Shown here in pieces: positions 26,201 through 64,000 of a stretch of DNA of 64,000 nt; within the stretch, counting starts at the first letter, position 1, and each line of letters starts with the position of its first letter. The stretch is from contig CM037857.1 of NCBI GenBank assembly GCA_021292105.1, positions 35,348,680 to 35,412,679 on the forward strand, in the 5' to 3' direction. This DNA is from Anadara kagoshimensis (lineage: Eukaryota > Mollusca > Bivalvia > Arcoida > Arcidae). A program made the translations under genes and the position numbers. Under the pieces are notes generated by a model, which worked only from the letters and a program-made list of their open reading frames with translations, did no database searches and was not told where the DNA came from.

Positions 26201-29200
26201 TCAGAAATTCAAAATAATGTATCAACAACCGAGGTTGTATTGGAGAGACATCTTTTACATTTTAAATACTTTCATTACAGATGTAAATTCTAGATCAGCT
26301 CTGATCATCGGCCCATTTCAGTTGTTTTCGTCTTGACTTCTTTATTTGCCATAACTACATATATAAATATTTTACAGTATACAGACAAAACAGTTTTAAT
26401 AAGTCACTGAAATGAAATCTGCTGAGGTCAACATGATTTAAAAGTTAGAATTCTTGTAATTTCAGGTTTTTATGGAAGACCATGGTCCACAGAACAAAGA
26501 AAGTTATTGTTTTCATGGTTAAAGAAGATGGGAATGAATACCTATATGTATGCACCAAAGGATGATTGCAAACACAGGGCATTTTGGAGGGAACTGTATT
26601 CTGTAGAAGAAGCTGGTTAGTTTCAACATTTGCTACATTTAATCAGGACTGAAAATCTAGGGCTTCAAAGAAACAAATGTCCATTTAAAAAAAATATGGT
26701 TTTCTACATTTAAATCATTCTGCAGAATTGAAATAAAATAATTCTGTAGAACCAAGTATTCAAGCTTTTTTTGTATAAAATATATATTGTTTTTAACTTG
26801 TTCTTCAATATCGCCATTAACTTACCTTGTCATTGCAAAACGAGATATTTTCTTTTGTGTTAGATGTGTTGTTTTGAAAATGAAACTACTTTAATTTTTA
26901 TTCCTTTTTTCTAATTTTGGTTTTAAAAACTACTGTGTGTTTAAAGTTGTATTTGATTTTCTATTTAGATCACATGACTAGTTTGATAGATGCTGCTAGA
27001 GAATACAATATAGAATTTGTCTTTGCATTGTCTCCTGGATTAGACATCACATTTTCTAATGCCAAAGATGTACAAGCACTAAAGAGGAAACTTGAACAGG
27101 TAAGGAAAATTCTTATATGACTAGAAGGTGCCAAAACATGGAAAATTAAGTCTTGTTAGAATAAAAAAAAAAATTGGAATTGACAAAACGTTCAGAGCTT
27201 GTTTAATAAGATTTCAAACAACTAAAAGAGTATTTAAATTATAAGGTTTATATATTCATATACCTTTGTCAATTAATGGATGTGTTCCGTTCAACTCATA
27301 CTCAATATAATGTTTCATTTTGTTTTTTATTTACCAGGTGGCAACTTTTGGCTGTAATGCCTTTGCTTTACTGTTTGATGATATTGATCCAGAGCTAAGT
27401 GAGACAGATAAAAGTGTGTTTCATTCATCAGCCGGCGCCCAGGTTTCTGTTACTAATGAAGTATATGAACATCTTGGACAACCAGTGTTCTATTTTTGTC
27501 CAACAGGTATGTCTTTCATAGAAAGAAAAAATGAAAAATGTTTTCAACAGAATCAGATTATCCTCTTTCTGTAGAATAATGTTTTATAAATTACAAAAAA
27601 TTGCAGTTTGTTTGAAAACAAAATGTATGAGACAATTCAGCTAATTTATATTCATGACTGCACTAGGTGATGACAGCAATTGTGTATTTATAAGAGGAAC
27701 AGGGGATGGTAATGTTACATCAATGATAAACATAGTGAATGCATTTAATTTACATATACTTGAGCTACAAGTCTTTTTAAGAGTTTGATTATATTGTAGC
27801 TAAATAACATTAACCAAAAATCACTGTAAATGCAATTTTACAAAACTTGTATGCCAAATTTTCATATCTCGAATCGGTTTTTCACCAAATTGGTTTATAC
27901 TTGATTTTGTTTAAATTTCAGAGTACTGCACTTCTAGAGCTTTACCAAACCTGGCTTCATCAGACTACCTCAATACAATAGGTGCTAAACTCCTTCCTGG
28001 AGTTGATATATTGTGGACAGGTAAGTTCTCATAGACTAAAAACTCTCTAATTGTGTGCTTCAAAGTAATGCACATGCTTTTCCTAAAATTAATTTTACAA
28101 GGATTTTCAAATTGATAATGGTTTCATGACTATTTTACATTTTATTGACAATTGCTTTGGTTAAATGTAGCTAAATTAGTAACCCTTGACTTAAATTTTA
28201 TTTTCTAAAATGTAGCCAATGTATTTAACAATGTACTTGTTATTTAAAGATATTTATAAATATTTTGTATTTTATATTATAGGAAATAAAGTTATCACAA
28301 AGAAGATATCTATCCAGCACTTACAGGAAGTATCTGCTGTACTTAGACGTCCTCCAGTTATCTGGGATAATATCCATGCAAATGATTATGATGTAAGGAG
28401 ATTGTTTTTGGGGCCATATGATGGTAGATCACCAGAAATTATTCCATATTTGAGAGGAGTATTGACCAATCCAAATTGTGAATTTGAGACAAATTATATT
28501 CCACTTCATACCTTGGGCCAATGGAGCAAATCTAACAGCAATGGACTAAAGAAAGATGTTATATCTGGTTAGTATAGCATAAATTGACAAAATATAAATA
28601 GAAACTGCTATTATTCTAGGTTATAGCAGTGTTCTTGGACCAGAAAATTATTCTTGTCACTAGTTCTGAATTAAACCAGGAACAATAAGATTGACTTTCT
28701 TTGGTTTTCTGCATTAGTTCGAATTCTGTTCATTACATTTCAAAGGTTTTTCTTTCATTGAGATACATAAGAAATAAACTGTTTGAATTTAAATACAGTC
28801 GAAACCACTTAATTGCATATCGGATAATCGCATAAATCGGTTAATCGCATAGGATTTTGAAATCCAAAACCATTTCTTATTTATTCTATTGAAAATTACC
28901 CGCATAATTGCATAGCCAAAAATGACCAACTCCGGTTAATCGCATAGAAAATTTCCCGACCCGATCCCAAAACCCTAGGATTTAAAAAAAAATACCATAA
29001 TTTTTCTTCAAAATACGATGTGCACTTGATTTCATTTCCAGGTTTTGTGACAAATCCAAGATCGTCACCGTTATCAAGGGAAAGTGTCAAATATGTTTAT
29101 TATACAGACGTAGAAGAACATTTGTATTTAATGAATAAAATATGTTGTATAAATTCTGTTTACTTGTTTGTGTTTTGTATTTTTTCCTTCTTTCTGAACA

Positions 29201-43666: not shown

Positions 43667-46600
43667 TTAAGTTACAATTGAATGCAAAATGTCACCATCC
43701 TGTGTGTCAAGTCCAGAGCCATTTGTGCTGACATGTGTCACTGTGCTGTTTACATGCTGAGCTAATTGCTGAGCCAGACTAGCATTGACATGTGAGATGG
43801 TCCCTCCCTGTGACACATTAAGTGTTGCAGCCAGTTGTGACAGAGATGCTGCTGTTATCTGGGGACTTTGTCCAGAATTTGGTGCTATAGCGATGGGTAC
43901 ATGACGAGTGATGGTTGGTGTTGCTGGACGAGATGAAGCTCCATTAGTACTGCTTTCCAAAGAATCTGCATCTATAGGCTCCACCTTGCCACCACTTACA
44001 AACACACCACCTTGACCTCTCTGTCGATTCTGTGCATGTCTGTGTCTAGATTCATACAGGTATTTCTGAAAAAAAAAATCATAAAATATTACATGCACTT
44101 TCTAATGTTAAAATTAACACCTGCAAAACTTAATCACATTCTTATCATGTCTACCAAGTTTCATAAGAATTCATACAGGAGAAAATATACAAATACATGT
44201 ACAAACTTTCAATGTTCAAAACTCAAAATGACCATAAGAGACCATAAAAAATGATGCCTGCACACTATGTTCTACAGTATGATTATCATGTAACTAAGTT
44301 TCATCCCTTCTGCTTCAGATACAATGATGGCTGCCAATGATCATATTGGAAATCACATAGCAAACACAACTAAGTCTGGTCATATACAGAAAACCCTCTT
44401 TATAACGACCTTCTTTACAACAACATTTACACCTACTGACGAAAAAATTGAGGGAACAAATGCACACAGTGCATTTTGCCCTCCTTATAACAACATTTAC
44501 AGCCAACAGTTGATTTTAGGAACAAAATGTACATTTTACAATTTTTTTCTTTATAACGACATTACTGAAATGATTAAATAACTAACCAAACATAAATAGG
44601 AGTTCAGCCAGTTTGGGTCAATCAACTACATGATATATTATTAGAAGCCATAAAACAGCTGTTATCAAATCTAGTGATAGACTATTTGAGGTTTATATAA
44701 CTTAGCAAAAATCAGAAAGGAGGAGGTTATGTCCAATGCCCAGTGACAAATTAGTGACATTTTAAATTCAAATCTATTTATATGCCAAGAATATTTTTCA
44801 TTTAATTGGGTTTTAAGTTTAATAGTATTTTTATCCATTACTGGGATATATAATATATATTCATACATCTAAAAATTCAACTTTCATAATTGTTTGTAAT
44901 TAAGAGACAGTGATTTTGTTACATTTTTCAAAAAATATCTTCTCACTGTAATTATGATAACTTGGTCGTTTGTAAAAGGGTTGACTGTACTTATGATAAC
45001 TTGGTCGTTATAAAGAGGGTTGACTGTACTTATGATAACTTGGTCGTTATAAAGAGGGTTGACTGTACTTATGATAACTTGGTCGTTATAAAGAGGGTTG
45101 ACTGTACTTATGATAACTTGGTGTTATAAAGAGGGTTGACTGTACTTATGATAACTTGGTTGTTACAAAGAGGGTGACTGTACTTATGATAACTTGGTTG
45201 TTACAAAGAGTGGTGACTGTACTTATGATAACTAGGTCGTTACAAAGAGTGGTGACTGTACTTATGATAACTAGGTCGTTACAAAGAGTGGTGACTGTAC
45301 TTATGATAACTAGATCATTATAAAGAGGGTTGATTGTACTTATGATAACTAGATCATTATAAAGAGGGTTGACTGTACTTATGATAACTTGGTCGTTATA
45401 AAGAGGGTTGATGCCTAAGTTTCAACAATATTCATTTGGTGGTTTAGAGGAACATAAGGATAATTTTTTGCTGACATACAGACAACAACAAATATTAAAG
45501 TCCCCCCCCCCCCTTCAGTTTCACTAGTAGACATTTATACAATTCAAATGTGGAAATACATATAAAACTAATCAATCAAATACTAAAATGATGATAAATC
45601 ATAACCAGTATATGTTGTCAAACAGACAGAAAAATTACCAGTGCATCTCCTGACAGCACTTTCAAGCTTCCAAATCACTTTCAAAGATATAATAACAATG
45701 TATTTCATTGGTGTATGTTTGATAGCAGCAAGCACTCAATTTTTTTTGACAGGTCTTTTTTGTCAACTTATTAAAGTAGGGCTGTTGTACAACAACACAG
45801 AGCTTGATTTTAAAACTACATTACCAAATAAGTTAGTACATTTATATCTTAAATTACATGTTTGAATCCATCAAAACTTTACTTTGTTTTCTTCCATATA
45901 TAGTATTAGAGGTACATGTAATCAGTAAGACCCAGTCATCTAGAAACATAAAATTGCTTGCTGTAATTGAATAGGCCTCATGTGCCATTCTCAAATACAT
46001 GAAAGTGAAATAATCTTGAGTGGGATATTAATTATGTTCAGTCATTCCTAGCTACATAAAATAAGTTCTTTACTTGTCTCTCTTTAGGAATCCTGCCCAA
46101 AGCTTCCAGTTTAGCCCTGGCCTGTCTTCTCTTCAGAATTCTGTGATACTGTTTAGCATTTACATATAATGGCTCCTCTCCAGTTTCTCCACCCTGTTAC
46201 AAGCAAAGGAAATACATTAAAATGTAGGTTTAAAAAGAATTTACAAGTTTTTAGCAATAGCTTTTTACCAACAAACAAAAGATAGATAGTTCATCTATTT
46301 ACTATGTGATGGTAAATATTAATGTCAATAACACTGAAGTTGCAAACAGTGCCTTGTCAATTCATTCTACTGGCTATGTCACTGATTGACAAATAAACCA
46401 GAGCTATTATAATGATTTCCAATTGAGATTCCACTGGCCATGTCACTGACTGAATGGCTAAAAGTTTCATATACAAATGTACATTCATCACTTCATTGAT
46501 ACTTAATATGCACAACCAATCACAAGGTGTGAGCAAGTATGTGTAATAGGAATTAATATTCAGGTCAAGATTTTTTGTTTTTCTATAGAAAAGGGGATAA

Positions 46601-58893: not shown

Positions 58894-60490
58894 AGAAACA
58901 TGCCTTGAATAGATCCCCATTGCATTTCAATAAGTGATATTATTCAGCTAATGTTTTATAGTTTTACTAAGACTACACCTGCTTAGGTTCATGGTTTCTG
59001 CGTTAAGGTTTTCTGACATTGTATTTTAACTACTATGGAAAAAGACTATTTTGAACATCAAATATAGTTAATTACGTTTTAATAAAGAATCGTTTGGAAA
59101 AATAACAGTGCATATAATTTATTTATACATTATCCAGAAACCTTACTAAAAAGTATATTTTTGTTAATGCTACATGCTTTGATTAACGTCTGTATATAGA
59201 AAAAATCATTTGTGACAGAAAATATGTATTTTAGTTAACCGTTTGGGCCAAAAGTTACCAACGAATGTGGGGTTACAATTAACCTTTTCACCTGCGTGAT
59301 TGAATAAGAATAATCCACACCTAGACGACCTATAAACTAATGAAGTACCTAATAGGAGTATTTATACTTCACCATTTTGATTTTCTTGAAAAAATGGCAA
59401 AATCATTATGGTATGCACACAATCATATAAACTGATTTAAAAAACAACATATTTTTTTCCACTTAGGTCTCCCTTTTTGTAATGACTCTAATTAAAATTT
59501 TAACAAAGAGTTAGAATTAAAAATTGAATCGCCATATCATATTGATGCATGCCCAAATAGTCCGTTTGTTCACAGTAGAAAATAAATAAATAATGTGCCT
59601 GAAGAGATGTTTTTATCCATGTATTTTGTTTTTGAATACAGATTCACTGTTCAACTTACACAAACTAAACACGGTTGATTAGAGGTGTACACAGATAATG
59701 GTTTAGCCTAAATTGTCGCATAAACGTGAAACAATCAAGGAGTGGGAACAGTGTTCCATTATTGGAAGGAAATACGAAGAAAAGAAGAAACGCGAAAACG
59801 AAACTGTCTAAATTATTGCCCCAATGAAGGTAAAAATCCCAATACTTATTGCATGTATTGAAGAATACACGTAATTTCTGTCTGCATTTCTAGTTTATTA
59901 CTGTATACAGTCTATTTATATAGGTATATATGTTTTACTTAATAACAAAGACAAGGGAGTAGTTGTCTAGGCCGAATTATCTGCCTTAACGATGGTAAAT
60001 CGACCTAGTTGTCATACAGTTGTGGAAACCCACTTTAAAACTTGCCATGTATAAACTGGTAACATGTCATTTGCCTAGTGATATTTAGAGATTATCATAT
60101 GACAACTTTGATATCACATCTCCGGCCCGAGGGCTGGTATCGGGACTCGAGGGCTGATAAGAGGTGTGATATCAAAATGGTCATATAATAAACTTTTTAT
60201 CATGTGTATTCCCAGTTGACTCTGTGAATCTTTATTTAAAACTTTCAAACTCAAGCCAAGCTTTGAGACACCCTTCACTGTACCCCTTGCACATCTATGT
60301 AAATAGTAAATTCTTCCGTCATCATTACATCATCCGAAAGACACATTTTGTCAAATTTTTGTAAACAACCACCAAAATACAGTTTGGTGCATTAAAGGAG
60401 ATATAAGGGTTTTTATCAATGACCCGGTTCATGTAAGTAAATGAATTATTAATACTTCTCATAATTGTTGAGTTATGTGTAAAATATATA
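58894..60490. other. Intergenic stretch upstream of CHID1
   Basis: No gene recognised. The CHID1 transcription start and 5' noncoding exon should lie here or further left, since an acceptor precedes the start codon, but I could not place them. AT-rich, with no large repeat seen. Confidence 0.4.
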
Positions 60491-60613
60491 TTGATGATAC
60501 AATGTCACAATTTGTTTAGCTCTCTCTCTCTCAATATATAATAAATTCTATATTGATGATACAATGTCACAATTTGTTTAGCTCTCTCTCTCTCTCTCAG
60601 TATATAATAAAAT
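60491..60613. repeat. 62-bp tandem duplication with CT tracts before the CHID1 start exon
   Basis: TTGATGATACAATGTCACAA followed by TTTGTTTAGC, a CT run and a TATATAATAAA-type end is present twice with period 62 (60491 and 60553). The second copy ends about a dozen bases before the splice acceptor at 60626, so the CT run may contribute to its pyrimidine tract. Confidence 0.8.
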
Positions 60614-60643
60614 TCTATCATTTCAGGATTATGCGAATTAACT

Positions 60644-60830
60644 ATGAAGTTAAAAGACAAATTACTCTCTGTGTTTTTTATCTTGTGCTTAAATTGTGAC
60701 ACAGAGGGTGTACTGTCAAAGAGTGACAAGAAAAAAGTTAAGAAAGAAGAAACAGTAAGTACTCCTCCACATCATAATTCCCCTCCTCTTGCCCCTCCTC
60801 CTCCTCCTCCTCTCCTCCTCCTCCTCCTCC

Positions 60831-60876
<46 letters not shown>

Positions 60877-60999
60877 AATCATTACCACTACTATTATCAT
60901 CATCACCATCACCACCACTATCATCAACATCATCATCATCACCTCATCATCACAACCACCATCACTACATTATCATTATCATATTCATCATCACTACCT

Positions 61000-61069
<70 letters not shown>

Positions 61070-61343
61070 TTTCTTGTTTGTCATCATCTTATTGCCATTT
61101 AAAGGATTTATTTTTCCTTTTTGTGTCAGTACTGTAAAATTACAATGCCAAATTTAAATCTTAATAAATACTATTAGATTTCTATGGTTTCAGGTAAAGC
61201 TGTCAGACAAAAATGTATTGGACAAGGGACTTGTTACTGAAAATGTGAAGTCAAAAGACATAACAAAAGAACACAAATCTTATTGTGATACAGAGAGAGA
61301 AATCAAACAGTTTGATGGTGACACTTTGGCTTATGTCACTCCA
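60644..61343 (+). CDS. CHID1: Chitinase domain-containing protein 1, N-terminal exons
   Basis: CHID1 (stabilin-1-interacting chitinase-like protein) is a secreted or lysosomal GH18-like lectin. Two exons: 60644-60754 (preceded by acceptor TTTCAG at 60621-60626, so with spliced 5' UTR) and 61194-61343, both phase 0; 87 residues in the window. Exon 1 gives a signal peptide (KLLSVFFILCLNC) then VLSKSDKKK, like the TLSKSDAKK of the human protein. Exon 2 has DKGLVTENVK, EHKSYC and GDTLAYVTP, matching DRGLVV, EHRSYC and GDVLGYVTPW. The catalytic-fold exons lie beyond the window. An out-of-frame ATG at 60631 overlaps the start. Intron 1 has a long CTC/CAT tract; intron 2 begins directly with a minisatellite derived from exon 2. 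Confidence 0.92.
60765..61070. repeat. (CTC)n and (CAT)n compound microsatellite in CHID1 intron 1
   Basis: CTC-rich repeats at about 60768-60830 grade into CAT/CAC repeats to 61068. It begins about ten bases after the exon 1 donor and fills most of the intron. The open frame reading through it into poly-Ile and poly-His is not coding. Confidence 0.92.
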
Positions 61344-64000
61344 GTAAGTACAGTCAGAGAGAGCAATCAAACAGTTTGATGGTGACACTTTGGCTTATGT
61401 CACTCCAGTAAGTACAGTCAGAGAGAGAAATCAAACAGTTTGATGGTGACACTTTGGCTTATGTCACTCCAGTAAGTACAGTCAGAGAGAGAAATCAAAC
61501 AGTTTGATGGTGACACTTTGGCTTATGTCACTCCAGTAAGTACAGTCAGAGAGAGAAATCAAGAAGTTTGATGGTGACACTTTGGCTTATGTCAATCCAG
61601 TAAGTACAGTCAGAGAGAGAAATCAAACAGTTTGATGGTGACACTTTGGCTTATGTCACTCCAGTAAGTACAGTCAGAGAGAGAAATCAAACAGTTTGAT
61701 GGTGACACTTTGGCTTATGTCACTCCAGTAAGTACAGTCAGAGAGAGAAATCAAACAGTTTGATGGTGACACTTTGGCTTATGTCACTCCAGTAAGTACA
61801 GTCAGAGAGAGAAATCAAACAGTTTGATGGTGACACTTTGGCTTATGTCACTCCAGTAAGTACAGTCAGAGAGAGAAATCAAATAGTTTGATGGTGACAC
61901 TTTGGCTTATGTCACTCCAGTAAGTACAGTCAGAGAGAGAAATCAAACAGATGGATGGTGACACTTTGGCTTATGTCACTCCAGTAAGTACAGTCAGAGA
62001 GAGAAATCAAACAGTTTGATGGTGACACTTTGGCTTATGTCACTCCAGTAAGTACAGTCAGAGAGAGAAATCAAACAGTTTGATGGTGACACTTTGGCTT
62101 ATGTCACTCCAGTAAGTACAGTCAGAGAGAGAAATCAAACAGTTTGATGGTGACACTTTGGCTTATGTCACTCCAGTAAGTACAGTCAGAGAGAGAAATC
62201 AAACAGATGGATGGTGACACTTTGGCTTATGTCACTCCAGTAAGTACAGTCAGAGAGAGAAATCAAACAGTTTGATGGTGACACTTTGGCTTATGTCACT
62301 CCAGTAAGTACAGTCAGAGAGAGAAATCAAATAGTTTGATGGTGACACTTTGGCTTATGTCACTCCAGTAAACAGTCAGAGAGAGAAATCAAACAGATGG
62401 ATGGTGACACTTTGGCTTATGTCACTCCAGTAAGTACAGTCAGAGAGAGAAATCAAACAGTTTGATGGTGACACTTTGGCTTATGTCACTCCAGTAAGTA
62501 CAGTCAGAGAGAGAAATCAAACAGTTTGATGGTGACACTTTGGCTTATGTCACTCCAGTAAGTACAGTCAGAGAGAGAAATCAAACAGTTTGATGGTGAC
62601 ACTTTGGCTTATGTCACTCCAGTAAGTACAGTCAGAGAGAGAAATCAAACAGTTTGATGGTGACACTTTGGCTTATGTCACTCCAGTAAGTACATGGTGA
62701 AACTTTGGCCTTTGTCGCTCCAGTAAGTGCAGTTTGATGGTGACACTTTGGCTTATGTCACTCCAATAAGTGCAGTTTGATTGTGACACTTTGGTTTATG
62801 TCACTTCAGTTAGTGCAGTTTGATGGTGACACTTTGGCTTATGTCACTCCAGTTAGTACAGTTTGATGGTGACACTTTGGCTTATGTCACTCCAGTAAGT
62901 ACAGTTTGATGGTGACACTTTGGCTTATGTCACTCCAGTAAGTACAGTTTGTTGGTGACACTTTGGCTTATGTCGCTCTAGTAAGTACAGTTTGATGTTG
63001 ACACTTTGGTTTATGTCACTCCAGTATGTAAAGTTTGATGGTGACACTTTGGCTTATGTTACTCCAGTAAGTACAGTTTGATGGTGACACTTTGGCTTAT
63101 GTCACTCCAGTAAGTACAGTTTGATGTTGACACTTTGGCTTATGTCACTCCAGTAAGTACAGTTTGATGGTGACACTTTGGCTTATGTCACTCGAGTAAG
63201 TACAGTTTGTTGTTGACACTTTGGCTTATGTCACTCCAGTAAGTACAGTTTGATGGTGACACTTTGGCTTACGTCACTCTAGTAAGTACAGTTTTATAGT
63301 GGCACTTTGGCTTATGTCACTCCAGTAAGTACAGTTTGATGTTGACACTTTGGCTTATGTCACTCCAGTAAGTACAGTTTGATGGTGACACTTTGACTTT
63401 TGTCACTCCAGTAAGTACAGTTTGATGTTGACACTTTGGCTTATGTCACTCCAGTAAGTACAGTTTGATGGTGACACTTTGGCTTTTGTCACTCCAGTAA
63501 GTACAGTTTGATGGTGACACTTTGACTTTTGTCACTCCAGTAAGTACAGTTTGATGTTGACACTTTGACTTTTGTCACTCCAGTAAGTACAGTTTGATGT
63601 TGACACTTTGGCTTATGTCACTCCAGTAAGTACAGTTTGATGGTGACACTTTGACTTTTGTCACTCCAGTAAGTACAGTTTGATGTTGACACTTTGGCTT
63701 ATGTCACTCCAGTAAGTACAGTTTGATGGTGACACTTTGACTTTTGTCACTCCAGTAAGTACAGTTTGATGTTGACACTTTGGCTTATGTCACTCCAGTA
63801 AGTACAGTTTGATGGTGACACTTTGACTTTTGTCACTCCAGTAAGTACAGTTTGATGTTGACACTTTGGCTTTGTCACTCCAGTAAGTACAGTTTGATGG
63901 TGACACTTTGACTTTTGTCACTCCAGTAAGTACAGTTTGATGTTGACACTTTGGCTTATGTCACTCCAGTAAGTACAGTTTGATGGTGACACTTTGACTT
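61291..64000 (+). repeat. Minisatellite built from CHID1 exon 2 end plus its splice donor
   Basis: The last 53 nt of exon 2 (61291-61343) and its donor GTAAGTA are the first unit. Then about 21 units of 64 bp run to about 62686, each with AGAGAGAAATCAAACAG, TTTGATGGTGACACTTTGGC and TTATGTCACTCCAGTAAGTA. From about 62700 to the window end about 30 units of 43 bp follow, lacking the 21-bp AGAGAGAAATC part. From about 63330 two 43-bp variants (GATGTTGACACTTTGGCTTATG and GATGGTGACACTTTGACTTTTG, shown in parts) mostly alternate, making an 86-bp higher-order unit. Both periods are 1 modulo 3, so the array cannot be an in-frame protein repeat. It continues past the window. Confidence 0.95.

Follow-up and report, generated by a model that had tools for sequence, protein, structure and literature searches.

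What has filled the start of intron 2 of the chitinase domain-containing protein 1 (CHID1) gene of Anadara kagoshimensis with 60 tandem copies of the end of exon 2 and its splice donor (61354-64384), and do these copies serve the gene? We addressed this in a window of 64,000 nucleotides (GenBank assembly GCA_021292105.1, contig CM037857.1, positions 35,348,680 to 35,412,679 of the forward strand) and its flanking DNA, plain coordinates being positions counted from the start of the window. The reading we favour, at a probability of roughly 0.8, is a neutral intronic minisatellite that was founded by a small duplication and captured a splice donor.

The gene was recognised by its product: exon 2 matches CHID1 (PDB 3bxw) over residues 40-87 (E=1.3e-8), exon 3, 6.2 kb downstream, takes up the match at residue 88, and the last exon carries it to residue 393, with a single intron between residues 87 and 88 in the gene model. 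The 11 coding exons, separated by GT-AG introns, span 13.5 kb of genomic DNA from ATG to stop and encode 389 amino acids which match 3bxw over query residues 14-389 (E=9.2e-119) and contain a Glyco_hydro_18 domain; the gene looks intact. The nearest protein, P0001 (of the best 120 of 1381 found), is 92% identical over 100% of the query and lies on a 1503-bp contig whose source label, lgn, we take to denote assembled public reads; as CHID1 spans 13.5 kb here, this contig is presumably spliced RNA. P0001 reads ...FDGDTLAYVTP/WNNHGYD..., with nothing inserted at the exon 2/exon 3 junction, and no insert at the TPWN junction was found in the 120 listed proteins (the best 120 of 1381; 117 by pattern, three by eye). 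The uninterrupted junction identifies the first donor, at 61344, as the right one, and it counts for the neutral reading. A first-pass annotation of this DNA had named both the gene and this donor, and was right on each. Among the matches listed, the top named ones are mostly from molluscs, the first two named being oysters. Exon 5 of the model (L009:9120-9223) is one residue short of P0001 (PRV-FDGW vs. PRVLFDGW), and an imperfect long TCA/ATC microsatellite (60831-61069) fills much of intron 1, just upstream of exon 2.

Table 1. Features of the exon 2 end and the array in CHID1 of Anadara kagoshimensis.
Feature	Position	Strand	Remarks
CHID1 coding exon 1 (signal-peptide end)	60644..60754	+	111 nt, in frame with exon 2, matches P0001; donor GTAAGTA at 60755
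CHID1 coding exon 2 (second coding exon)	61194..61343	+	50 codons (150 nt), ends ...FDGDTLAYVTP
Repeated part of exon 2	61291..61343	+	53 nt in 64-bp units; last 33 nt in 43-bp units
Unit 0	61291-61353		real exon 2 end and intron start; from decomposition
True 5' splice site GTAAGT of intron 2	61344..61349	+	intron to 67564, 6221 bp
64-bp units, 21 copies (units 1-21), 13 perfect	61354..62693	+	
In-frame TGA	61377..61379	+	33 nt past exon end; first stop that transcripts using any later donor would meet
43-bp units (units 22-52)	62694..64000	+	last unit cut by window end
Distal zone	63292..64000	+	two 43-bp variants largely alternating, ~86-bp higher-order repeat; pattern in decomposition
Lone distal 64-bp unit, beyond window	64065-64128		from decomposition with flanking DNA

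Two methods confirmed the proposal of the first-pass annotation that an exon end has been amplified, donor included, into the intron. Tandem Repeats Finder reports a 64-bp period in 22.0 copies at 61291-62694 (97% matches), adjoined by a 43-bp period in 31.6 copies at 62649-64000 (92% matches), and a wrap-around decomposition of the stretch and its flanking DNA against a cyclic consensus, in which the genuine exon end is unit 0 and copies are counted after it, resolved 22 copies of 64 bp and 38 of about 43 bp. The amplification had been put at about 50-fold within 61291..64000, which was too small, the 60 copies making up ~3.0 kb and ending at 64384, 384 bp past the window edge. The 43-bp unit consists of the last 33 nt of exon 2 (coding FDGDTLAYVTP) and GTAAGTACAG, whilst the 64-bp unit adds 21 bp to it, a T absent from the exon followed by 20 nt that track the exon, and this 21-bp difference sits between two ACAGT direct repeats; the earlier description of the units as copies of the last 50 or so nucleotides of exon 2 thus fits the 64-bp type (53 nt) and not the 43-bp type (33 nt). 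Likewise, the dozens of near-identical donors described there are present in 54/60 copies, in which GTAAGT is intact, and have been lost in units 16, 23, 24, 25, 29 and 60. Head-to-tail copies with a unit within 10-100 bp, lying inside intron 2 (61344-67564) between 3bxw residues 87 and 88, make this an intronic minisatellite, and with a unit that holds an exon end and its splice site, unit 0 being followed by 60 copies, it is an exon-intron-boundary repeat as well.

Chance is excluded as the origin of the copies, as a 25-mer across the exon/intron boundary has 51 matches at ≤3 mismatches (exon included) where shuffles are expected to give 0.00. When the 1.115-Gb assembly (36 contigs) was searched with the 64-bp unit, scoring the best candidates only and skipping very common words, all 61 reported matches lay at the CHID1 locus; a dispersed element was rejected on this result, and the single locus, like the anatomy of the array, counts for the neutral reading. 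Tandem arrays are often mis-sized, and the array or its copy number might on that ground be a product of assembly. However, the ~3.0 kb are embedded in a 51.8-Mb contig with unique sequence on both flanks and the units exhibit graded divergence and private variants, and we consider an artefact very improbable, while the precise number of copies could be wrong.

Units 1-21 have 1.2% variant cells, gaps included, and 13/21 perfect copies, vs. 4.4% and 3/39 in units 22-60; near the join of the blocks unit 22 has nine variant cells and unit 24 has five, and the three units there that lack GTAAGT are 23, 24 and 25. The simplest history would have the 43-bp type arise first and the 64-bp type expand later beside the exon. 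This order is unlikely to be the whole history, because the lone distal 64-bp unit and unit 1 share a rare C, which suggests that the two ends of the array exchanged sequence or that the 64-bp type is older than it appears. The final copy reads CCA/GTGAGTAG and then runs into unique intron, as tandem duplication predicts, which again counts for neutrality. Because tandem duplication leaves the original downstream flank attached to the final copy, the intron probably began, before the duplication, at this final copy (CCA/GTGAGTAGTTTTC), and today's donor would be an upstream copy of it. For the neutral minisatellite we envisage a small tandem duplication with its junction at CAG/TTTGATGG, which would have placed the beginning of intron 2 (GTAAGTA) against exon 2, perhaps with the help of short stretches of shared sequence (ACAGT / AGTTT), and would thereby have copied 33 nt of the exon with the donor; the 43-bp unit may then have expanded by slippage or unequal exchange, and a 64-bp version that takes in another 20 nt of upstream exon sequence would have expanded later next to the exon.

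Splicing, we infer, still keeps to the first donor in this animal, because that site is nearest to the exon 2 acceptor (150 nt, vs. 214, 278, 342 nt and on for exons extended by later donors) and is transcribed first; exon definition and transcription order generally favour a first donor. The unproductive outcome which the first-pass annotation foresaw for later donors stands, by a different route. It had expected a frame shift, yet 19 of the 59 later donors still beginning with G keep the phase; these are no better than the others, as the in-frame TGA lies before every later donor (for five by translation, for the rest by position). A productive CHID1 mRNA is therefore predicted to need the first donor, and occasional use of a later one would give an mRNA stopping at this TGA, which would probably be degraded.

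The later donors could nevertheless act as a splicing rheostat, in which repeated sites compete or gather U1 snRNP and copy number sets the unproductive or retained share of transcripts, and hence CHID1 dosage. Several features fit this: 45 later sites in the window match or exceed the true donor by U1 duplex energy, a rough stand-in for a trained splice-site score, with such sites occurring at 17 per kb in the array vs. 1.0 per kb elsewhere in the window; splicing from any later donor would yield no productive mRNA; and the retention of GTAAGT in 54/60 copies counts against neutrality as well as for the rheostat. If the donors were maintained for such a role they should vary less than the exonic core beside them. 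Variant cells make up 7/360 (1.9%) of the donor hexamer and 70/1980 (3.5%) of the core, a difference in the direction that selection would give and to that extent a point against neutrality, but not significant (p=0.15), and distinct substitution types amount to 4/18 in the donor and 20/99 in the core (p=0.76); both comparisons treat as independent copies that share descent, and have low power. The core changes comprise 17 nonsynonymous, 3 synonymous and 0 stop changes (possible: 72, 24 and 3; again the copies share descent), and these counts contain no sign of purifying selection on the coded FDGDTLAYVTP peptide. Neither the donor-conservation test nor the coding test supports a function, and both are weak since the copies share descent; a donor that varies like the core, and a core that changes without coding constraint, count for the neutral reading.

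The extended exons, from 214 nt upwards, would also exceed the other CHID1 coding exons (42-156 nt), and minisatellites abound in this genome with no need to invoke such a role. Sampling the same contig, C1, in 20 evenly spaced stretches of 10 kb (200 kb in all) gave 22 minisatellites (period ≥10, ≥3 copies, span >100 bp) covering 17.8 kb, and intron 2 itself holds a second array directly after the first (L009:3731-5777, 62 bp × 33, 98% matches), for which no other match was found in the window or in the 50 kb downstream. This background counts for the neutral reading. None of the 22 consensuses contains GTAAGT on either strand, and the idea that this genome tends to form minisatellites with donors was rejected as weak; the one other donor-like array found is diverged and lies past the CHID1 stop (L010, below). 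Minisatellites as such are ordinary here, but not one with its start in an exon and the donor of that exon in its unit. The tuning of CHID1 dosage proposed in the first-pass annotation gains no support from the sequence and is on this balance quite improbable.

A second role would be coding, with each ACAG/33 nt/GTAAGT stretch spliced as a cassette microexon that adds an in-frame FDGDTLAYVTP repeat. Of 35 such stretches within the window, 34 have an open frame in phase 0, and every unit has a CTTAT that fits a loose branch-point pattern. Open frames are expected anyway with few changes, however, only 3/99 single changes making a stop, and the excess of nonsynonymous over synonymous changes given above leaves no synonymous bias. 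Pyrimidines make up 53-59% of the acceptor-like sequence at the 43-bp join and at one of the 64-bp sites, and 18% at the other 64-bp site, vs. 65% in the true acceptor, and no repeated FDGDTLAYVTP-like peptide occurs in the 120 listed proteins (the best 120 of 1381), so that we give coding microexons almost no credence.

Constructs built for competition between duplicated 5' splice sites place several equivalent donors downstream of one acceptor, the nearest usually being favoured; these are engineered and have few sites, whereas CHID1 has dozens in a natural gene. An antifreeze glycoprotein gene reportedly evolved from trypsinogen by the manifold amplification of a short element straddling a splice junction (Chen, DeVries and Cheng, 1997). 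Its repeats became coding under selection, while the CHID1 copies stay intronic and without coding constraint.

Human genes in segmental duplications carry variable internal tandem repeats at exon-intron boundaries, which can change exon/intron structure or use cryptic splice sites (PMC2812944). As in those genes, a minisatellite has here expanded at an exon-intron boundary, but the human repeats average 4 units of 30 bp (160 bp), vs. 60 copies and 3.0 kb in CHID1, and in CHID1 the founding units all hold the true donor and the gene is apparently unchanged. Intron gain by tandem duplication, in which new introns form from exonic AGGT or from copied acceptors (PMC4974935), likewise relies on duplication to supply copies of splice signals, of which the fission yeast cases have several; in contrast, CHID1 has copied the donor side only, into an apparently pre-existing intron, and no new intron is indicated. 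A literature search, which scarcely covered subscription journals, found no published example in which a splice donor had been multiplied into an intronic array of this size. Shorter boundary repeats and tandem-duplication intron gain make this a known kind, in an extreme form (PMC2812944, PMC4974935).

The locus amounts to a natural experiment, with one acceptor, the true donor and >50 near-identical copies of it that differ in little but position, and could show to what extent donor choice is dictated by proximity to the exon. The locus is also a warning for annotation, as gene finders and short-read mappers may assign the exon 2 boundary to an incorrect unit. Should the length of the array vary between individuals, it would test the cost of minisatellites that capture splice sites, and were the rheostat true after all, >50 equivalent 5' splice sites would lie beyond one premature stop with array length setting CHID1 output.

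Other candidates and neighbouring features can be dealt with briefly. The 43-bp unit contains a GTGACA/TGTCAC hairpin; an explanation of the repeat by RNA structure was rejected, neither unit type folding better than shuffled sequence (z 0.98 and 0.51), as was a known RNA family, with 0 Rfam matches at the gathering score across 60300-64000. Also in line with the rejection of a dispersed element, exact matching of a 26-mer gave 0 hits in both viral_contigs and genome_contigs, although these are poor places for animal repeats, and a search for the array in relatives, using exon 2 with 11 read-through residues as the query, returned no candidate. Further minisatellites follow the gene: a diverged 34/68-bp array ~1.1 kb past the CHID1 stop (L010:4468-5089) repeats a donor-like GTAAGT/GTAAGC, and a 29-bp minisatellite of some 487 copies, ~14 kb long, lies downstream of CHID1 (L010:7778-10000, L011:3-9982, running on). 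On the minus strand at 44945-45411, a 39-bp × 12 minisatellite has the 12-mer TAAGTACAGTCA in common with the beginning of the CHID1 array unit; an equally good match arose in 3/5000 shuffles (one orientation). Two neighbouring genes are represented in the window, by a plus-strand beta-N-acetylglucosaminidase (NAGidase) exon at 28216-28572 (E=1.7e-19) and a minus-strand NFYA exon at 43667-44101 (E=2e-7).
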